Below are positions 3,391 through 12,607 of a DNA stretch of 63,816 nucleotides, piece after piece. The notes below the pieces were generated by a model that saw nothing but the letters and a program-made list of their open reading frames with translations, was not told the DNA's origin and made no database searches. Position numbers and translations under genes: made by a program. Position 1 is the stretch's first letter; the number at the start of each line of letters is the position of its first letter. The stretch comes from Ignavibacteriales bacterium. Its GTDB lineage: Bacteria > Bacteroidota > Ignavibacteria > Ignavibacteriales > Melioribacteraceae. The stretch lies in assembly GCA_016177735.1 (NCBI GenBank), contig JACOUS010000022.1:1-63816 (forward strand), in the 5' to 3' direction.

Positions 3391-3960
3391 ATGAGCTTGA
3401 GCGATAATCAATTAATCCTAAATGCGCAGAAGGGGGACGCAGCTGCTTTCGAGGAGCTTCTCTTCCGATACGACCGGCATGTTCTAAATATTGCCAAATC
3501 ATTTAGGAATAATGATGACGACGCAAAAGATATTTATCAGGAAGTGTTCTTAAGAGTTTTTAGAGGATTGAAAAATTTTCAATTCAAAAGCGAATTTTCA
3601 ACGTGGCTTTACCGGATTACCGCAAATGTCTGCATCACTTATCAATCGCGGAAGAAGCAGCACGAATCGATTGATAAAGAATTAGGGAACGATGACGATG
3701 ACAAAACAACATTTGCTGAACATTTGCCCGGTGAATTGAAAACGGACGATACTGCTGTCGGTTCGGATTTATCGAAGCACATAAATAAGGCGCTCGATAC
3801 TTTACCGCCGCAGCAGAAGATAGCATTCACGTTAAAATATTATGAAGAATACAAAATAAAAGAGATTGCGGAAATTATGCAGTGCAACGAAGGAACAGTG
3901 AAACGTTATTTGTTCACCGCAACTCATAAAATGAGAGAAAGATTGAAAGGAGTTTTATAA
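3391..3960 (+). CDS. RNA polymerase ECF sigma factor (sigma-70 family)
   Basis: This 189-residue protein directs RNA polymerase to a specific promoter set. Region 2 spans about residues 22-90, with 'DAKDIYQEVFLRVFRGL' and 'FSTWLYRITANV' typical of ECF factors; region 4 covers about 134-186, with 'LPPQQKIAFTLKYYEEY' and a helix-turn-helix around 'EGTVKRYLFTATHKM'. It heads an operon with a HEAT-repeat membrane protein and two DUF4097 proteins, so it probably controls an envelope response and its own operon. The adjacent membrane protein is the likely anti-sigma factor. The ATG at 3391 has no strong Shine-Dalgarno sequence. Confidence 0.93.
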   Translation: MSLSDNQLILNAQKGDAAAFEELLFRYDRHVLNIAKSFRNNDDDAKDIYQEVFLRVFRGLKNFQFKSEFSTWLYRITANVCITYQSRKKQHESIDKELGNDDDDKTTFAEHLPGELKTDDTAVGSDLSKHINKALDTLPPQQKIAFTLKYYEEYKIKEIAEIMQCNEGTVKRYLFTATHKMRERLKGVL

Positions 3961-4062
3961 AACCGGGTACGGCGTTAGCCGGACGAAGCATCTCGATGAA
4001 AATAAGCAGGAGATTCTTCTTCCCGATGCTTCAGCACATTCAAGCCGCCCGGCATCGGGACT
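3961..4062. repeat. Degenerate palindromic element between sigma and anti-sigma genes
   Basis: The spacer holds GAAGCATC near 3985 and its complement GATGCTTC near 4023, then CGGCATCGGGA, forming imperfect hairpins. It resembles the intergenic repeats seen elsewhere in this window. It could fold in the operon mRNA and alter the ratio of the two products, but this is inference. Confidence 0.4.
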
Positions 4063-4080
4063 CAGAATTAAGGAGTAAAT

Positions 4081-5043
4081 ATGAACAGAGAAAAATTTAT
4101 AGAACAATCGCATTTGTATTTGATGAACGAACTCGATCAGAAAGAAATCATCGAGTTTGAAAATGAAATGATGGAAAACGATGAATTCGGAAAAGAGTTC
4201 GAATCAATCAAACAAATTTATAATGCGTTTGCGGCAAGCCGTCCGGCAGAAGCGGATGAAAAAGTTCTCGCTTCGGCACGTAATTCATTAATGAGAGTGT
4301 TACGAAGAGAAATTGCAAAACCGTCCGCAAAAGAAAAGGTAATCGAAAGGCTCAAAAATATTTTTGTGACCAACTACAAATTTGCGCTCGGAAGTTTTGC
4401 AATGATGTTTGTCGGATTGTTCGCCGGTTACTTGCTTTTTTCATCAAGTGATATGCCGATGATTGAAACAAGCCGTTCTGTAAATGTTGATAATCTCGGC
4501 GATGGCTCGACAAAAATTACAAACATTCGTTTCCCTTCTCCGTTTTCAGACGGCGGTGAAATTGAAATTGCGTTCGATGCGGTAAAACCGATCAGCTACA
4601 AAGGAACCGCGGAAGATCCGATGATTCAAAAACTTCTTGCAACTGCACTTGTTACGCAAAGTAATCCGGGATTACGCTTGAAAACAGTGAATGCAATTTC
4701 ATCGCAAATCGAATCGGAAAATTTTAATCACGATCCTAAAATAAAATCATCGTTAATCACTGCAATGAAAGTAGATGAAAACCCGGCAGTGCGGCGCGAA
4801 GCATTGAATGCATTGATAAAATTTCCGTTTGATGAAGATATCCGCGATGCATACTTGTTTGTTTTATCGAACGATAGAAATTCCGGCATGAGAGTTTCTG
4901 CAATAAATGCTCTGGCTGAGTTGAAAGTTCAGGGAAAATCACTGGACGAAAAAATTATAAATGAGTTGAACAGAAAAGCACAATATGATGAAAGTGATTT
5001 CATTCGATTACGTGCGGCTTCACTTGTTAAGGAGGTCAACTAA
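4081..5043 (+). CDS. Membrane protein with anti-sigma-like N-terminus and C-terminal HEAT repeats
   Basis: The 320-residue protein starts with a short acidic helical region ('HLYLMNELDQKE', 11-22) like the cytoplasmic part of anti-sigma factors, but lacks the zinc-binding His/Cys residues. One membrane segment lies at about 101-121. The C-terminal half (about 180-320), predicted outside the membrane, contains four HEAT-like repeats, each with an 'NP..R..A' or similar turn, for example 'NPAVRREALNALIKF'. By position after an ECF sigma gene it is probably its anti-sigma factor, with the HEAT repeats acting as periplasmic sensor or partner-binding module. The start has a good GGAGTAAAT Shine-Dalgarno. 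The anti-sigma role is inferred. Confidence 0.75.
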   Translation: MNREKFIEQSHLYLMNELDQKEIIEFENEMMENDEFGKEFESIKQIYNAFAASRPAEADEKVLASARNSLMRVLRREIAKPSAKEKVIERLKNIFVTNYKFALGSFAMMFVGLFAGYLLFSSSDMPMIETSRSVNVDNLGDGSTKITNIRFPSPFSDGGEIEIAFDAVKPISYKGTAEDPMIQKLLATALVTQSNPGLRLKTVNAISSQIESENFNHDPKIKSSLITAMKVDENPAVRREALNALIKFPFDEDIRDAYLFVLSNDRNSGMRVSAINALAELKVQGKSLDEKIINELNRKAQYDESDFIRLRAASLVKEVN

Positions 5044-5044
5044 T

Positions 5045-6196
5045 ATGAGAACAATAAAGATAATATCCGGCTTGATGATTCTTTCGTCAATTTTATTGAA
5101 CAATGTTTATGCTGATCCGGAAAATCAAAAAGAATCAGCGGGCGTTTTCAAAGTTAATAAAGGCGGCAAACTTTACGTAAACGTAAATCCCGGCGATGTC
5201 AAAATTCATACATGGGATAAAAATGAAGTAATAGTTAAAGTAAGAGGACTTGAAGACGACGACGAAGATAATTTGGAAATGAGACTGGAGAACAACACGG
5301 TGTTCGTAAAATATAAACCGCATTGGGGATGGGGAAGCGAAGGCGAATTCTCGATTACAATACCGGTTCATTTTAATGTTGATATTAATACAAGCGGCGG
5401 AGATATTCTTGTTAACGGAGATATTCACGGCGATGCCAATTTTAATTCTATGGGCGGCGATATAAATGTGAAAAACATTAAAGGCAAAACAAAAGTTAAC
5501 TCGCAAGGTGGAGATATTTCTGTTGGCGATATTGACGGCGGACTTTCAATTTCTACGATGGGCGGTAATATTCAAGTTGGAAACGTAAAAGGTGATTATT
5601 CAAAAGTTAGCACGATGGGCGGCGACATCGATATCGGAAAAGTCTCATCGGGTTTAAGTGCCGTTACATACGGTGGCAATGTAAACGTGAACAGTGTCGG
5701 CGGGGATGCCGATGTTAGAACGATGGGGGGTGATATCGATCTCGGCAATGTGAGCGGTTCGGTTAAAATGGAAACCAACGGCGGAAATCTTGCTGTAAAA
5801 AGTGCAAGCGGAAAAGTAAAGGCTATGACTCACGGCGGCGAGATTGATCTGCGCGGAATTACCGGAAGTGTTGAAGCTACTACTACTGCCGGAAATATTT
5901 ATGTTGAACTCGACCCTTCATCGAAAAGTCACAGTAAACTCTATTCCAACAACGGTGGAATTACTATCGGACTTAAATCCAGTGCGAAAGCTACAATTGA
6001 AGCGGAGATCGGTGTGCGAGGTTACTGGAAATCGATGAGAGACGAGTATAAAATTTATTCCGAGTTCGATGCGAAATCTTACAAGACAGACGAGTATTCA
6101 AAAAGCATTAAAGCAACTTATGTAATTAACGGCGGCGGCGGGGTGATTTATGCAAGATCCGTTAACGAAAACATTACAATCAAAAAGGTGAAGTAA
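5045..6196 (+). CDS. Exported DUF4097-family beta-solenoid protein
   Basis: The product (383 residues) has a signal peptide (about 1-23, ending near 'NVYA') and a DUF4097 region of short beta-strand repeats with 'GG(D/N)I' turns, for example 'TMGGDIDIGKV', occurring about ten times between residues 115 and 290. The family forms right-handed beta-solenoids; no enzyme activity is known. I chose the ATG at 5045, which follows AAGGAGGTCAAC and overlaps nothing, over an upstream in-frame start inside the previous gene. It is co-transcribed with the sigma/anti-sigma genes and with a paralogue immediately downstream, so it is probably a target or effector of the sigma response. Confidence 0.85.
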   Translation: MRTIKIISGLMILSSILLNNVYADPENQKESAGVFKVNKGGKLYVNVNPGDVKIHTWDKNEVIVKVRGLEDDDEDNLEMRLENNTVFVKYKPHWGWGSEGEFSITIPVHFNVDINTSGGDILVNGDIHGDANFNSMGGDINVKNIKGKTKVNSQGGDISVGDIDGGLSISTMGGNIQVGNVKGDYSKVSTMGGDIDIGKVSSGLSAVTYGGNVNVNSVGGDADVRTMGGDIDLGNVSGSVKMETNGGNLAVKSASGKVKAMTHGGEIDLRGITGSVEATTTAGNIYVELDPSSKSHSKLYSNNGGITIGLKSSAKATIEAEIGVRGYWKSMRDEYKIYSEFDAKSYKTDEYSKSIKATYVINGGGGVIYARSVNENITIKKVK

Positions 6197-6197
6197 A

Positions 6198-7421
6198 ATG
6201 GAAACGAAATTTATTAAACGGATTGTTTTAATTCTCTCTTTAACATTTGCCGGGCTGTTGTTCATTGCCGCATTTCCTTTGACAAATTATTTCGGTGATG
6301 CCGAAGAAGAAACAAAGACGATTGCATCAGCAGATTCTTTGCCGGATAAACATATGCAGAAAGAATTCAACGTAAAGTTCGGCGGCAGACTTACAATTGA
6401 TCTACGTACCGGCGGCATGATCGAAATTGAAGGATGGGATAAAGAAGTTGTTGACGCACAAGTAACAATCGAAGGAAGCGATGCCGAAGATGTTCAGCTC
6501 GAACTTGAACAAAATGGCAATGATGTTGAGATCATTTCTTTTTATGACGGCGATATGGAAAACGGCTACCACGCCAATACAAATATCGTTGTTAAAATTC
6601 CGAATAAGTATGATATTGATTTTTCTACAATGGGCGGCGGAGTGAAACTCGATAACTTGAACGGAGAGTTGAGCGGAAGAACAATGGGCGGTGAACTAAA
6701 CTTGAGTCATTTACGCGGGATGCTGAATGTTTCTACCATGGGAGGAAATATAACGGTAAAAGACTGCGAGGTTGACGGCGAAGTTCAAACGATGGGCGGA
6801 GAGGTTCGCGTTGAAAATGTTACCGGAGATTTAAACGCCAAAACAATGGGCGGAAAAGTAAAACAAGTAAATGTAAAATCTAAAAAAGGAAATGAAGGTG
6901 ATGAAGTTAATATCTCCACAATGGGCGGTGATATTGAAGTTGACGAAGCAATGAACGGAACAAAAGTTAGAACTATGGGCGGCGATATTACCGTTAATAA
7001 AGCGGCAAAGTTTGTTGATGCCGAAACTTACGGCGGCGATATCAAAATCTATTCTATTGACGGTTCGGTTTCTGCAGAAACTAAAGGCGGCGATGTAAGC
7101 GTAAATATGGCTGGCGATCCGAATGAAGGAGACCACTTTGTGTACATTACTTCTTTTGGCGGCGATATTGTTCTTTCGGTACCTTCGGGATTATCCATGG
7201 ATATAGATATTGAAATTGCTTTCACAAAAGATAAGTGGAGAAAAAACGGAGACGTTAAAATCATCAGCGATTTTGACATAGCACAAAAGACAACAGATGA
7301 ATGGGATGATTCAAAAGGTTCGTCGAGAAAATATTTACGCGGCAAAGGAGAAATAAACGGCGGCAAACATAAAATTAAGATAAGAACAATTAACGGTAAT
7401 GTTACTCTAAAGAAAAGTTGA
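6198..7421 (+). CDS. DUF4097-family protein with N-terminal membrane segment
   Basis: This 407-residue paralogue of the preceding gene has an N-terminal hydrophobic segment (about 9-28, 'IVLILSLTFAGLLFIAAF') that is a signal anchor or signal peptide. From about residue 140 to 310 the repeat 'TMGG' occurs seven times, followed by TYGG, TKGG and a divergent FGG rung, which suggests a regular beta-solenoid. The start lies 1 base after the stop of the first DUF4097 gene, so the two are translationally linked. It is likely envelope-located. Its function is unknown; the family link is clear from the repeats. Confidence 0.85.
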   Translation: METKFIKRIVLILSLTFAGLLFIAAFPLTNYFGDAEEETKTIASADSLPDKHMQKEFNVKFGGRLTIDLRTGGMIEIEGWDKEVVDAQVTIEGSDAEDVQLELEQNGNDVEIISFYDGDMENGYHANTNIVVKIPNKYDIDFSTMGGGVKLDNLNGELSGRTMGGELNLSHLRGMLNVSTMGGNITVKDCEVDGEVQTMGGEVRVENVTGDLNAKTMGGKVKQVNVKSKKGNEGDEVNISTMGGDIEVDEAMNGTKVRTMGGDITVNKAAKFVDAETYGGDIKIYSIDGSVSAETKGGDVSVNMAGDPNEGDHFVYITSFGGDIVLSVPSGLSMDIDIEIAFTKDKWRKNGDVKIISDFDIAQKTTDEWDDSKGSSRKYLRGKGEINGGKHKIKIRTINGNVTLKKS

Positions 7422-7504: not shown

Positions 7505-7541
7505 AAACCCGGAACAGATTGTCTCGCGCCGGGTTTTTTTA
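7505..7541. terminator. Bidirectional rho-independent terminator between convergent operons
   Basis: AAACCCGG (7505-7512) pairs with CCGGGTTT (7529-7536) and is followed by a run of seven Ts; on the minus strand the hairpin is followed by TTTTATG. It lies between the convergent DUF4097 and anti-sigma genes and overlaps the stop codon of the latter. Confidence 0.75.
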
Positions 7542-7781
7542 TTCCTTCAATCCCAAAAATTCTATCAGCTTATTGTGTGCATCTTCGGAAATCGTGACGT
7601 TGTATTTTTTGTAAAACTCGATTGTTGTTTCAACGGATTTAAAATAGTGGCGGCAGTTTTCGCAATTTTCGAGATGAGCTTTTATTTCAATGCACTTCGG
7701 CGAATCGAGTTCTTCGCCGAGATTATCGCAGATATGAGCCATAACATCTTTGCATGATGGTGTGTGTGTATGTCCGTTCAT
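7539..7781 (-). CDS. Zinc-finger anti-sigma factor (ZAS type)
   Basis: An 80-residue cytoplasmic protein with the zinc-binding motif H-x3-C-x2-C ('HLENCENC', about 31-38) that defines ZAS anti-sigma factors, plus an upstream His/Cys-rich N-terminus ('HTHTPSC'). It has no membrane segment, so it is a soluble anti-sigma, perhaps redox-responsive like RsrA. It overlaps the preceding ECF sigma gene by 4 bases (ATGA), as usual for a sigma/anti-sigma pair. The target sigma is therefore almost certainly the upstream product. Confidence 0.85.
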   Translation of the reverse strand: MNGHTHTPSCKDVMAHICDNLGEELDSPKCIEIKAHLENCENCRHYFKSVETTIEFYKKYNVTISEDAHNKLIEFLGLKE

Positions 7782-8371
7782 GATTTGAATCTCTCGTTTA
7801 ATTCATTTCTTAAAAATGCACGTGCACGGTGCAGTCTCGATTTTACAGCCGGAACGGAAAGCTCGACAATTTTTGCAGTCTCTTCTGTTGATAATCCTTC
7901 AACGTCTCTCAGCGTAAATACAATTCTGTATTCGGGCGCCAGTTTTTGAATCGCTTCATCCAACATATTTTTTAGTTCGTTGTTTTCGGTTACTTTATCC
8001 GGCGTAACTTTCCAATCGGCAATATTCTTTTCATCGATCAAAGCTTCTTCATCGTCGAGCGAAGTAAATCCGTATTTGTTTTCCGAACGCGCCAGCATCA
8101 AACAATGATTTGCAACAACGCGGTAAAGCCATGTAGAAAGTTTTGATTCACCGCTGAACTGATGAATATTTTTTACCATGCTCAAAAATGTTTCTTGCAT
8201 CGTGTGTTCGGCGCGGTCTTTATGCCGGCAGATTTTATATGAAAAATTATAAACCGTCTGCTCGTACATTTTTACAAGTTCGGCAAGGGCTTTTCTATCG
8301 CCGCCCCGTGCAAGTTCAATAAGTTCTATTTCTTCAATTTGTTTGATGTTTTTAATCCATAATGGTTTCAA
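7778..8371 (-). CDS. RNA polymerase ECF sigma factor (RpoE-like)
   Basis: The product has region 2 with 'TMQETFLSMVKNIHQF' and 'LSTWLYRVVANHCL', and region 4 with 'LAPEYRIVFTLRDVEGLSTE' and the helix-turn-helix 'SVPAVKSRLHRARAFL'. No ATG gives a natural N-terminus; I prefer TTG at 8371 ('KPLWIKNIKQIEE...'), which overlaps the end of the upstream glycosylase gene by 20 bases; an ATG at 8446 would add 25 residues encoded inside that gene. The product is about 197 residues. It is paired with the soluble zinc-finger anti-sigma downstream. Transcription from the glycosylase promoter suggests a link to DNA-damage or oxidative stress, but this is inference. Confidence 0.9.
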   Translation of the reverse strand: MKPLWIKNIKQIEEIELIELARGGDRKALAELVKMYEQTVYNFSYKICRHKDRAEHTMQETFLSMVKNIHQFSGESKLSTWLYRVVANHCLMLARSENKYGFTSLDDEEALIDEKNIADWKVTPDKVTENNELKNMLDEAIQKLAPEYRIVFTLRDVEGLSTEETAKIVELSVPAVKSRLHRARAFLRNELNERFKS

Positions 8372-8984
8372 ATTTGCTGTCCAAACTTTTCCAGAGATAA
8401 AGACTTGCAATAGAGCAGTACGGATGCCAGTCATTCTCTTTCGCAATTTTTACAATCTTTTTCTCTTCGGGCAATTTTCTTAAACCGTAATTTAACATAA
8501 TGGCTTTGCGTATGCCAAGATCGTTCACCGGAAGAACGTCCGTTCTGCCGAGTGTGAAAATCAGAAACATCTGTGCAGTCCAAACACCGACTCCTTTTAC
8601 TTTGATTAACTCGGCAATAATTTCTTCATCACTTCTTTCGGAAAAATTTCTGAGATGAATTTCTTTGTCAATAACTTTTTCGGATAAGTCTTTTACGTAT
8701 TTAGCCTTTGCATTCGAAAGTCCGAACGATCTAAGCACGGCGTGGTCTGTGTTTATTATATCTTCGGGCATAGGATTGTGGTGATAATGCCCGGACAATC
8801 TATTAAAGATGGATGCGGCAGCTTTAACCGATAATTGCTGACCGATAATTGCCCTTAAGAGCGAATTAAAGTATTGTTTGTGAGGTTGTAAATTGCAGTT
8901 GCCGAACTTTTTTATTAATGTTGACATGACTTTATCATGTTTTGATAAATGTTTAACGGCTGAATTTATTGAATCATTTTTCAT
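8352..8984 (-). CDS. DNA-3-methyladenine glycosylase II (AlkA-like, HhH-GPD)
   Basis: This 210-residue enzyme removes alkylated bases from DNA in base excision repair. It has the helix-hairpin-helix 'LIKVKGVGVWTAQMFL' followed by the catalytic aspartate in 'PVNDLGIRKA', plus the N-terminal 'AIIGQQLSVKAA' motif of the HhH-GPD superfamily. No iron-sulfur cysteine cluster is present, which fits the AlkA/Mag1 branch rather than Nth. A GAGGAAA sequence precedes the ATG. It is the first gene of a three-gene unit with an ECF sigma and its anti-sigma, an unusual partner set. Confidence 0.88.
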   Translation of the reverse strand: MKNDSINSAVKHLSKHDKVMSTLIKKFGNCNLQPHKQYFNSLLRAIIGQQLSVKAAASIFNRLSGHYHHNPMPEDIINTDHAVLRSFGLSNAKAKYVKDLSEKVIDKEIHLRNFSERSDEEIIAELIKVKGVGVWTAQMFLIFTLGRTDVLPVNDLGIRKAIMLNYGLRKLPEEKKIVKIAKENDWHPYCSIASLYLWKSLDSKFETIMD

Positions 8985-9014: not shown

Positions 9015-11435
9015 ATGGAAAATCAACTTTTTATAGTGCTCGGAAGAAATAAGCTGCTCAAAAATGTGGATATTTCCGGAATTAACCTAAGCAACATCAA
9101 AGGAAAACTTTTCACAGCAAGCGAAGGGGAAATACTTTACCGCGAAGGCGACCCGGCAGATAAAATTTTTCTTGTCATAAGCGGCGAAGTAAACGTGATG
9201 AAGAAAAGGACTCTCGGCAAAGCCAAATCATATATTTTCAATGAAGATAATTTTTTCGGGAACGATGAATTTATTGAAGAGACAATTCGTTTTTCTACCG
9301 CTGTTGCACTGCGGGATTCTTACTTAATTGCTCTTTCAAGAGATGAAATTGAAGACATGATTACTCAAAGCCGCGAGATAAATTTAAATCTGCGCGAACC
9401 TTCGGAAGAAAATGATGAAATTGTTTCGGGCAGAACAACATTGAGCGACAAAGTTTCTTCGCATCTCAAAAATCTAAATGTTACACTTGCAGAAACTCCG
9501 TCCTTACGCGAAGAAAAAACCGAAGAAGAACAATTTTTTAAATCAATTGCGGATACTTCACTTGCCGATAAAAAAAATATTGTTCAGCAGCTTGAAGACT
9601 TTTCAAAAACTCCGGCAGTAGAACCGGCAAAAGATGACTTTGACGAAAGTGTTTTTTTGAATGAAGACGGAATTCCGAAAGCCGAATTCGATCTATCCGA
9701 ATTGGATTTAACCGCTGACGTAAAGATTGAAGAGACGGCGGAAAAAATCGAAGAGCCCGAAAAAGTAAAAGAAGATTTTGATTTTATTCCACCCGATGCT
9801 TTGAATGAGGATGGAATTCCCAAACCCGAATTTGAACTTCCCGAAATACCAGAAAAACCTGAAGCAGTACCCGCCGCAAGCACTTCATTTGACGACGAGC
9901 TTTTCAAAATTTTAAGCGGCGGCAGTACGGATAATTTTAATGAAACGCCGAAAACTCAACAAGAGGATTTTGGCGAAACGGACAATGCTTTTCTTTCCAC
10001 ACTCGATTTTGATAAACCGGAAGCGCATGAAGAAACAGAGACAAAAGGATCACCGGCTGATTTTGGTTTTCCGCCGGAAGAATTTTTAAAACAAGAAGAA
10101 ACGGAAACGCATCAAGAAGAAAAAAAGCCGGAGAAAGTTTCATTAAATGATTTTGAAGCGGAAGAAATTTTTGCCGAAGCCGATCGGAATATTAAAAGTT
10201 TGGACGAAGAAAAAAAATCCGGCGGCTTTGCTTCCGATGCTTCAACATACGAAGGAGGTATTATGGGTGCGGAACAATTGGAAATGATCATTAAAGCCGC
10301 TGAGCTCGTTAACTCGAATATTAAAATAGAAGAAGTTCTTAAAAATATTGTTGAAGTAGCCGTCAATCTTACGAATGCAGATAGGGGCACTCTCTATTTG
10401 CTCGACCGCGAGAAGAACGAACTTTGGTCGCTCATTGCAATGGGCAGCGAGAAAAAAGAGATCCGCTTAAAACTCGGCGAAGGTCTCGCCGGATACGTTG
10501 CAAAAACCGGTGACATTTTGAATATCAAAGATGCGCGGAAAGATTCGCGCTTCCGTTCGGATTTTGATAAATCGAGCGGCTATATAACAAAAACAGTTTT
10601 AAACTTTCCGATAAAAAATAACCGCGAAGAGATAATCGGTGTTGTGCAGTTGCTCAACAGCAAAAATGAAGAGTTCACAAAACTTGATGAAGAATTGCTT
10701 AATGCAATGTCGATTCATGCGGCATTGGCACTGCAAAATGCAGAGATGGTTGAAAAACTTTTGCAGTCGGAACGAGTGCAATCGCTCGGTAAAATGGCAA
10801 ACTTTTTAATTCAGGATATTAAAAAACCGATTCTTGTCAGCAAGCGTTACGCAGAACATTTGAAGAGTAAAAATTTGCCGCCCGATAACGCGCAAATTGT
10901 AGAAATGCTGCTCGAACAATTGACTCAAGTTGCGGATATCGTGCAGACAACATCGAGCTACTCCGAAGGCAAAACGGTTTTACGAATGTTGAACGTGAGT
11001 GTAAATAATACTTTGACAGATTATAGTTCGCGCATCGGTGCGTATGTAGAATCCCGCAATTGCAAAATTGTTAACGAGTATGATAAAGATGCAACCACCA
11101 AACTCGATGTGAAAGAATTTTATCAATGTTACATGCACATTTGTAAAAATGCTTGCGACGCAATGCCCGAAGGCGGAACGATTTATATTTCTACAAAGAA
11201 GGATGATAAAAAAGTAAAAATATATTTCCGCGATAACGGACTCGGCATTCCCGATTCATTCAAGGACAAAGTGTTCGAACCGTTTATGACGCACGGCAAA
11301 AAAGAAGGAACAGGACTCGGTCTTTCGATAACAAAAAAAATAGTTGAAGCTCATACCGGCACAATAGAAGTTCAAAGCGCACTCGGCGAAGGCGCCACAT
11401 TTATAATTACTCTTCCTACTATTTCTGCGTTGTAG
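9015..11435 (+). CDS. Cyclic-nucleotide-binding / GAF / histidine-kinase-like ATPase protein lacking the phospho-acceptor histidine
   Basis: The 806-residue protein has an N-terminal cNMP-binding beta-roll (about 12-120, 'EGEILYREGDPADKIFLV'), a long acidic low-complexity linker (about 130-410) with two copies of 'LNEDGIPK.EF.L', a GAF domain (about 426-575) and a C-terminal ATPase with N box 'KNACDAMPEGG', G1 'DNGLGIP' and 'GTGLGLS'. In the dimerisation helix the usual 'AHE' is 'IQDIKKP', so the phosphorylated histidine is Gln600. It may be an ATP-dependent scaffold or regulator rather than a kinase. No signal peptide or membrane segment is seen, so it is cytoplasmic. It lies divergently to the alkylation-repair/sigma genes, and an internal start is possible at 10263. 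Confidence 0.88.
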   Translation: MENQLFIVLGRNKLLKNVDISGINLSNIKGKLFTASEGEILYREGDPADKIFLVISGEVNVMKKRTLGKAKSYIFNEDNFFGNDEFIEETIRFSTAVALRDSYLIALSRDEIEDMITQSREINLNLREPSEENDEIVSGRTTLSDKVSSHLKNLNVTLAETPSLREEKTEEEQFFKSIADTSLADKKNIVQQLEDFSKTPAVEPAKDDFDESVFLNEDGIPKAEFDLSELDLTADVKIEETAEKIEEPEKVKEDFDFIPPDALNEDGIPKPEFELPEIPEKPEAVPAASTSFDDELFKILSGGSTDNFNETPKTQQEDFGETDNAFLSTLDFDKPEAHEETETKGSPADFGFPPEEFLKQEETETHQEEKKPEKVSLNDFEAEEIFAEADRNIKSLDEEKKSGGFASDASTYEGGIMGAEQLEMIIKAAELVNSNIKIEEVLKNIVEVAVNLTNADRGTLYLLDREKNELWSLIAMGSEKKEIRLKLGEGLAGYVAKTGDILNIKDARKDSRFRSDFDKSSGYITKTVLNFPIKNNREEIIGVVQLLNSKNEEFTKLDEELLNAMSIHAALALQNAEMVEKLLQSERVQSLGKMANFLIQDIKKPILVSKRYAEHLKSKNLPPDNAQIVEMLLEQLTQVADIVQTTSSYSEGKTVLRMLNVSVNNTLTDYSSRIGAYVESRNCKIVNEYDKDATTKLDVKEFYQCYMHICKNACDAMPEGGTIYISTKKDDKKVKIYFRDNGLGIPDSFKDKVFEPFMTHGKKEGTGLGLSITKKIVEAHTGTIEVQSALGEGATFIITLPTISAL
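10252..10265 (+). promoter_or_regulatory. Internal Shine-Dalgarno and in-frame ATG within the GAF-ATPase gene
   Basis: AAGGAGG at 10252-10258 is followed 4 bases later by ATG (10263-10265), which is in frame as Met417, exactly between the acidic linker and the GAF domain. It is stronger than the site at the annotated start, so a separate GAF-ATPase isoform of about 390 residues may be made. Confidence 0.5.
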
Positions 11436-11701
11436 TTTTATCTGAAGTTATTGCGCGTCATCATTAATAGTAGGACAGCTAGTTGCTGTTTCACCTCTCA
11501 CAGATTATTCGTTAAAACATCTGAAAACATGGTACGCGTATTATTTTTCTCTGTGCCTCTGTGAACTCTGTGTTATTTTTTTTTCACAGAGAAACACTGA
11601 GTTACACACAGATTTTTCATCTTAATATTGCTCTTTATTTCTTGTGTATTGTTTGTCCCGCCGAGGCGGATTGTTATTTGTTGTTTTGGTAATTTTGCAT
11701 C
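11436..11701. other. Intergenic spacer with imperfect inverted repeat
   Basis: The 266 bases before miaA hold an imperfect inverted repeat at about 11544-11616, built from CTCTGTG-type units on one side and CACAGAG-type units on the other around a T-run, and CCGCCGAGGCGG at about 11659. A TAATTTTG match to the Bacteroidota -7 motif (TAnnTTTG) lies at 11690-11697, only 4 bases before the miaA ATG. Confidence 0.45.
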
Positions 11702-12607
11702 ATGAAATATAATTTGATCATAATACTCGGTCCCACTGCTGCTGGCAAAACAAGACTTGCAACACTCCTCGCACACCGCTTCAATGGAGAAATTATTTCC
11801 GCGGATTCACGACAAGTTTACAAAGGAATGGATATCGGCACCGGCAAAGATTTGGATGATTACTTTGTTGAAGGGAACGTTGTGCCGTATCATTTGATTG
11901 ATGTTATCGAGCCGGCGGAGGAATTTAATTTGTATTTGTTTAACAAATTGTTCGAAGAAGCATACAATAAAATTATTTCCAAAAATAAAATACCATTTCT
12001 TGCCGGCGGCACCGGTTTGTATCTTCATTCGGTTATCAAAGGATACAATCTTGAAACAGCAGATTTTGAAAGTGCCGCTTACGAAGAATTGAATTCTCTA
12101 TCAATTGAAGAACTGCGGGCAAAACTGAAATCTCTGAATCCGAAACTTCACAACACGACCGATCTTTTAATCAAAGAGAGAATAATAAAGGCAATCATCG
12201 TTTCCGAAAAAGAAAAGAATACAATTAGTAACGAAGCTAAAAAAAATAATCCGCTTGTTATAGGAATAAATTTGGAACGAAGCGAAATCAAAAAAAGAAT
12301 TACGGAACGATTGAAACTAAGATTGCAAAACGGAATGATTGATGAGGTGAAAAAATTAACAGAAGAAGGAACAACATTTGAGAAGCTCGATTTCTTCGGG
12401 CTGGAATACAAATTTATTGGTAGATATTTGAAGGGCGAACTCAGCTATAACGACATGTATCAAAAACTTAACAGTGCAATTCACAGTTTCGCCAAGCGGC
12501 AGATGACATGGTTTAGAAAAATGGAGCGCGAAGGAATTACAATTCATTGGATTAACGGCGTTGATTATTCTTCAGCAGAAAAAATAATTTTAGAACACTA
12601 CAGATGA
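11702..12607 (+). CDS. miaA: tRNA dimethylallyltransferase MiaA
   Basis: MiaA transfers a dimethylallyl group to A37 of tRNAs that read codons starting with U. The 301-residue protein has the P-loop 'GPTAAGKT' (10-17), the substrate motif 'SADSRQVYKGMDIGTGK' (about 34-50) and the conserved 'LGLEYK'-like motif ('FFGLEYKFIGRYL') and 'KRQMTWFRK' near the C-terminus. Length is normal for the family. It overlaps the following glycosyltransferase gene by 4 bases. There is no clear ribosome-binding site and a promoter-like TAATTTTG ends only 4 bases before the ATG, so a leaderless mRNA is possible. Confidence 0.95.
   Translation: MKYNLIIILGPTAAGKTRLATLLAHRFNGEIISADSRQVYKGMDIGTGKDLDDYFVEGNVVPYHLIDVIEPAEEFNLYLFNKLFEEAYNKIISKNKIPFLAGGTGLYLHSVIKGYNLETADFESAAYEELNSLSIEELRAKLKSLNPKLHNTTDLLIKERIIKAIIVSEKEKNTISNEAKKNNPLVIGINLERSEIKKRITERLKLRLQNGMIDEVKKLTEEGTTFEKLDFFGLEYKFIGRYLKGELSYNDMYQKLNSAIHSFAKRQMTWFRKMEREGITIHWINGVDYSSAEKIILEHYR

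Follow-up and report, generated by a model that had tools for sequence, protein, structure and literature searches.

Glutamine at the phosphoacceptor position of a probable pseudo-histidine kinase kept across the Ignavibacteriales

The bacterial pseudo-histidine kinases that we found in print (DivL, RocA and an evolved ChrS) have been described singly; here an entire order carries one. In DivL orthologues the phosphoacceptor histidine is replaced by Tyr, or by Ala in one species. The cited part of PMC4211667 describes DivL as having neither kinase nor phosphatase activity, as binding and sensing DivK~P through its DHp surface, and as binding TNP-ATP weakly (57 uM). RocA of Streptococcus pyogenes is a membrane protein that works on CovS and whose putative histidine can be replaced without effect; a two-hybrid test saw no interaction, according to the cited part of PMC7028121. 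The evolved ChrS pseudokinase acts through HrrS, and ChrS-HrrS heterodimers were seen by two-hybrid in the section of PMC9491836 that concerns us, while another His-less kinase domain in Caulobacter is mentioned in an excerpt of PMC11481889. Our search of the open-access literature for pseudo-histidine or His-less kinases and for Ignavibacteria or Melioribacter kinases found no paper on the family described here.

The gene that we studied lies in a window of 63,816 nt, by which we mean the whole stretch of DNA that was analysed, and its features are collected in Table 1. Its product has the domain order CNBD, acidic linker, GAF, DHp and ATPase. The Pfam listing of the protein at E<=0.1 held no HisKA model, and in place of a PAS domain, which is absent from the listing, it held the CNBD and the GAF domain. 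The AlphaFold2 model, a monomer of moderate quality (mean pLDDT 72.7, pTM 0.43), has mostly good confidence in the CNBD, GAF, DHp and CA parts and poor confidence in the linker, and contains a DHp hairpin made of helices 556-618 and 623-651. The DHp-CA part of the model matches solved kinases at Z 20-24 (ZraS 24.2, HK853 ~23, DivL (4q20) 22.7); neighbouring Z values are ties, and in this model they are evidence of fold and not of function.

The preliminary description of this gene had placed a Gln at residue 600, where the phosphorylated histidine would be expected, and had called the ATPase boxes intact. Both statements were confirmed. The helix reads GKMANFLIQDIKKPILVSKRYAEHL, with Gln600 in the phosphoacceptor position of DHp helix 1, and all six key ATP residues of the N, G1 and G2 boxes (N712, D740/G742/G744, G767/G769) are present. 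The change had also been written as 'AHE' to 'IQD'; the Gln stood, but the nearest His-bearing relatives read IHDIKNP, so that the change is H to Q at 600 plus N to K at 604 (+4). The pseudo-kinase reading of the gene product is well supported by the alignments, with the His absent from nearly all homologues of the order and the ATP boxes mostly kept.

Table 1 Features of the locus in the window, with strand and basis of each assignment
Feature	Position	Strand	Basis or remark
zf-HC2 putative anti-sigma factor	7539..7781	-	Pfam
ECF sigma factor, divergent	7778..8446	-	Pfam
HhH-GPD (AlkA-like) DNA glycosylase, divergent	8352..8984	-	Pfam
Putative pseudo-histidine kinase gene	9015..11435	+	ORF with ATG start, 806 aa
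CNBD, residues 36-118	9120..9368	+	Pfam cNMP_binding PF00027
Acidic low-confidence linker, about residues 128-416	9396..10262	+	pLDDT mostly <50; composition and motif
GAF domain, residues 438-573	10326..10733	+	Pfam
DHp helix 1, residues 591-617	10785..10865	+	Conservation and structure model
Gln600, codon CAG, phosphoacceptor position	10812..10814	+	Alignment to homologues
R611 codon	10845..10847	+	Specificity position in DHp helix 1
H615 codon	10857..10859	+	Specificity position in DHp helix 1
HATPase_c, residues 698-802	11106..11420	+	Pfam; key residues intact
MiaA-like IPP transferase, one of two in the genome, downstream	11702..12607	+	Pfam IPPT
Conserved neighbour, 448 aa	12604..13950	+	No Pfam match

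The first homologue search covered 58 relatives, the window's own genome included, and found a strong homologue (E<=1e-45) in 43 of them. A class-wide profile search covered 294 genomes, 139 of which had a match at E<=1e-50, and 60 regions spread over the genera were taken. Rows with identical ends were removed before counting, as were, by hand, seven GAF-kinase paralogues (L080, L159, L160, L161, L162, L163 and L165). Of the 118 distinct sequences that remained, 72 were assigned to the order; the other 46 come from sister orders in the class, two of them sharing one genome. The 72 rows include that of the window and nine from named records, which were assigned by sequence; the order was named Ignavibacteriales through its best-matching named relatives, labelled Melioribacter or Ignavibacteriales.

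His is absent at position 600 in 71 of the 72 order homologues and present in all 46 from the other orders. The residues found in the order (n=72) are Q in 44 rows, S in 6, E in 5, N in 5 and D in 3, with G, R and K (2 each) and T, Y and H (1 each) being rarer. The +4 position of HisKA kinases carries the phosphatase residue, Asn or Thr; the window protein has neither (K604), and K is found there in 56/72 order rows, the sisters having N in 43/46 and S in 3/46. Among the paralogues within the window's genome (29 loci taken from 58 other genome matches, not all kinases), all 27 with a letter at the aligned column have His and 2 more are gapped. Gln600 is beyond chance, given His in 27/27 paralogues and its lack in 71/72 order rows against 0/46 sisters. 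An alignment to close homologues had been proposed as a check; the nearest relatives also carry Gln, which excludes a His codon in close relatives and rules out a sequencing error or a single-genome mutation at codon 600. Three rows of genus g2 (L080, L159, L160) had looked like a second paralogue with Gln; this was rejected as an alignment slip: L159 reads MSHEIRTPFN, and L080 and L160 are near-copies of this His-bearing sequence by their aligned letters. The remaining excluded paralogues (L161, L162, L163 and L165) show HEI in the aligned letters. A scan of the phylum (395 genomes, E<=1e-95) matched 50 genomes, all within the same class, and at this cutoff only the family looks class-limited.

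The age of the loss was read from a tree built by a 'quick' method, with SH-aLRT as its only support and with the alignment masked at columns 600 and 604. It covers 82 rows, 62 from the order and 20 from the sister group; the ten of 72 order rows that are missing are fragments and near-copies, and 26 of the 46 sisters are also missing. The order forms one side of a branch with an SH-aLRT of 100. The His state at 600 changes twice on this tree, and the pattern is best read, from these sequences, as a single loss of His at the root of the order and a single regain. Long branches are seen in eight rows, most of these branches being in family f3, and L084 and L085 may have been joined falsely. Within the order we relied on two placements only, the nesting of L075 beside L076 (98) and a 41-row clade that holds the window (92). 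L075 (3231-4295, minus strand) is the sole order row with His at 600 (AHDIKKP, codon CAC). It still has Lys at +4, its neighbour L076 has Tyr (TAC), and its source is a fragmented genome (G020, 68% complete, 460 contigs). A natural regain of His in L075 is possible from its sequence; a His in this position makes reactivation possible, and counts against the reading that we prefer.

This preferred reading, which we regard as moderately probable, is that the window protein is a DivL-like pseudo-histidine kinase with a single origin at the base of the order, and that it docks a partner but transfers no phosphoryl group. We infer ATP binding, absence of phosphotransfer, partner docking and ligand gating. 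The ancestor would have been a soluble CNBD-GAF-HisKA kinase of the kind that still reads HDIKNP in the sister orders; the acceptor His would have been lost at the base of the order and the phosphatase-type Asn at +4 in most descendants, and a long acidic linker would have been gained. The input of the GAF domain (perhaps also of the CNBD) and the ATP occupancy of the ATPase domain may then set the posture of the DHp helix. This helix would reversibly dock a partner, most likely the receiver domain of a response regulator, through re-tuned specificity positions L607, V608, R611, E614 and H615.

In order to see how the DHp helix is held, we compared conservation over residues 425-802 only, in the 41-row clade holding the window. 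Conservation is highest in the helix around residue 600: residues 591-617 average 0.49 bits against 1.25 for the GAF domain and 1.20 for the CA domain, and the best 27-residue segments all begin at 586-593. Five residues do not vary at all (K603, P605, K610, Y612 and H615), and R611 is replaced in a single row (R in 40/41). Site 600 itself, with 1.29 bits, ranks 214th of 378, and among the 27 helix sites only the end residue 617 varies more; the residues at site 600 are Q 32, E 3 and N 2, then S, R, H and Y. A loosely held site in a frozen helix is expected if phosphotransfer is gone and the surface is still used, and the lasting preference for Gln (32/41) indicates that site 600 is not fully free.

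By HMMER alignment V608, R611 and H615 correspond to positions 268, 271 and 275 of HK853. Counted from His243, the specificity residues of EnvZ fall at +7, +8, +11, +12, +14 and +15. The title of 4jas states that A268V, A271G and T275M rewire the kinase-regulator interface of HK853, and the cited part of an EnvZ study gives T250, R251, L254, A255, E257 and M258 as specificity residues (PMC2991266); the cited part of PMC7005713 has no bearing on DHp specificity sites. The commonest residues at +7, +8, +11, +14 and +15 are L, V, R, E and H in the order and G, T, V, Q and V in the sisters, and Tyr is the commonest at +12 in both. We read this pattern as a docking surface that may have switched partner and then become fixed, although the conservation of the helix could instead reflect dimer packing.

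A rival reading is a heterodimer helper (RocA- or ChrS-like) that pairs with an active histidine kinase and tunes it, or whose intact ATPase phosphorylates the His of its partner in trans. Intact ATP boxes and the precedents of RocA and the evolved ChrS (PMC7028121 and PMC9491836, in the parts cited above) agree with such a helper, but no close His-bearing paralogue was found in the genome, the best match being 31% identical over 577-802, and the specificity positions have moved away from the sister pattern; we hold this to be unlikely. A protein that is still a kinase, its phosphoacceptor having moved to H615 or another residue, seems improbable to us. H615 would be the natural candidate, being found in 41/41 clade rows and in 60/72 order rows, but it is missing in 8 of the 66 homologues with complete ATP residues, and it sits close to the end of helix 1 in the model (556-618), where it aligns with the HK853 rewiring site 275. 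Phosphorylation on another histidine, which the preliminary description had named as a finding that would overturn its claim, is thereby disfavoured, H615 standing 15 residues on and near the hairpin.

All six ATP residues are kept in 66/72 order rows and 46/46 sisters. Of the remaining six, L058 is truncated and five show altered ATP residues, most strongly L164, L166 and L167. Judging from these residues, most lineages would probably use ATP binding, and a few in family f3 would have lost it; the changes in 5/72 rows, together with the decayed syntenic forms, mean that ATP is not needed in every lineage.

Nucleotide binding had also been proposed for both input domains, and the cNMP part of this proposal was weakened for the window protein. 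The phosphate-cassette Glu and Arg-Ser have in a CNBD the roles that they have in CRP. Both the Glu and the Ser after the cassette Arg are found in 46/46 sisters; the window protein keeps the Arg (R92) and has Asn83 (codon 9261-9263) for the Glu and Phe93 for the Ser. Among the 39 readable CNBDs of the 41-row clade, L053 alone has Glu at the first of these positions, where H (14), Q (12) and Y (4) lead and one further row is gapped; at the Ser position Thr is commonest (21), with Ser and Phe in 4 each, and the window protein belongs to the Phe group. Order rows outside the clade keep the Glu in 20/29. With the cassette Glu absent and the Ser replaced, binding of cAMP or cGMP by the CNBD of the window protein is doubtful. 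The motif of cNMP-binding GAF domains is N-K-x-n-F-x3-D-E; in the window protein N548, F554 and D558 are conserved (set A2), with a spacing that differs from this motif: NSKNEEFTKLDE. Its closest solved relatives by sequence and fold are the GAF domains of the adenylate cyclase 1ykd (presumably CyaB2) and of PDE5/PDE2 (3lfv, 3ibj), and this good match makes a cyclic nucleotide bound by the GAF domain plausible. The linker of the window protein holds two copies of the motif NEDGIPK[AP]EF. A motif around DGIP (NEDGIPKAE-like), in one to three copies, is found in 18/68 order proteins and is a candidate short binding motif.

The surroundings of the gene are largely conserved. In 19/20 order loci an ECF sigma gene lies on one side and the MiaA-like gene with the 448-aa neighbour, which by eye looks like a family 2 glycosyltransferase, on the other; the AlkA-like gene is found in 13 and a release-factor gene in 15 of the 20. 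The exception is L198 (G049), whose genome has a MiaA paralogue elsewhere. In the window, the listed start of the ECF sigma gene overlaps the glycosylase gene, which makes a later true start probable. Between the kinase-like gene and the MiaA-like gene, the gap could be measured at 44 of 48 places (G035 twice); its median is 12 nt and it is at most 88 nt in 42/44, and such short gaps suggest an operon. The window's own gap (11436-11701, 266 nt) is an outlier. It contains an imperfect inverted repeat as well as short segments found again in the genome. The MiaA-like protein of the window is 36% identical to the genome's other copy. The neighbouring copy is present in 56/58 relatives, mostly with another copy elsewhere, and the two relatives that lack it (G010 and G045) also have no kinase-like homologue at the cutoffs used. 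Three of the 46 His-bearing sister loci (L148, L149 and L173) are likewise beside an ECF sigma gene, which supports orthology across the His loss. Elsewhere in the window, 3391-7421 holds a second ECF sigma gene and then two DUF4097 (toastrack) proteins.

A more far-reaching reading is a kinase whose output was reversed at the root of the order, in which the acceptor site is nearly free within a frozen helix, the ATPase domain acts as an energy or nucleotide sensor, and the paired MiaA-like product is controlled directly. We give this only a small chance; if it were true, nucleotide signals would be linked to tRNA modification via the second MiaA-like tRNA isopentenyltransferase.

In ten of the 15 relatives (of 58) without a strong match, the place next to the MiaA-like gene is taken by a diverged or decayed version (G029, G030, G031, G035, G039, G044, G046, G048, G051 and G054). 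G036 and G038 have a clean gap at the locus, with the MiaA-like gene kept and the kinase-like gene absent, and in G022 the MiaA-like paralogue runs to the contig start. Shortened or decayed syntenic forms (L230, L232-L238) have lost or changed GAF, DHp or ATP boxes; L233 and L235 keep the ATP-box motifs by eye, with the GAF domain seemingly missing. They make up a natural series of decay states, L230 being apparently frame-shifted. A decaying relic under relaxed selection and heading to loss would account for such forms, for the clean absence in G036 and G038 and for the long branches, most of them in family f3. However, constraint on the helix and on the ATP residues is strong throughout the window's 41-row clade, and 53/58 relatives keep some form of the gene, and we consider a relic very unlikely.

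Kinases of the RsbW/SpoIIAB type have a GHKL domain without a DHp hairpin. A GHKL Ser/Thr kinase of this anti-sigma type, acting on the neighbouring ECF sigma/anti-sigma pair, would suit the intact GHKL boxes and the ECF sigma gene close by in 19/20 order loci and at three His-bearing loci, but is highly improbable: the model predicts a complete DHp hairpin, with a conserved first helix, the closest folds are HisKA-type kinases, and ATP residues have been lost in some orthologues that share these neighbours.

The DivL-like reading gains interest from the breadth of the family, which offers His-bearing sister orthologues, a loss that can be placed, ATP boxes that are mostly retained, end states of decay and perhaps a natural regain of His. 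It makes testable what ATP binding is for without phosphotransfer, and what a DHp helix does when freed from catalysis. Compared with the sister CNBD-GAF-HisKA kinases (such as L119, L120 and L149), the order proteins share the domain order CNBD-GAF-DHp-CA, whereas the sisters have the His, the CNBD Glu and the CNBD Ser intact and other specificity residues, and their median ORF is 557.5 aa against 761 aa in the order. By analogy, DivL of Caulobacter crescentus (4q20) is the nearest known way of working. Both share the DHp-CA fold and a non-His acceptor position throughout the orthologues, which in our case was found in the counts and in the tree, and regulator docking without phosphotransfer, shown for DivL, is what we propose for the order protein. 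DivL differs in having PAS domains and Tyr or Ala at the acceptor position, where the order protein has a CNBD and a GAF domain, Gln, Glu, Ser, Asn and others at that position, and complete ATP boxes. RocA is alike as a sensor-kinase homologue that works without kinase activity. From DivL, RocA and ChrS alike, the order family is set apart by its domains, by the drift of its acceptor residue and by its complete ATP boxes.
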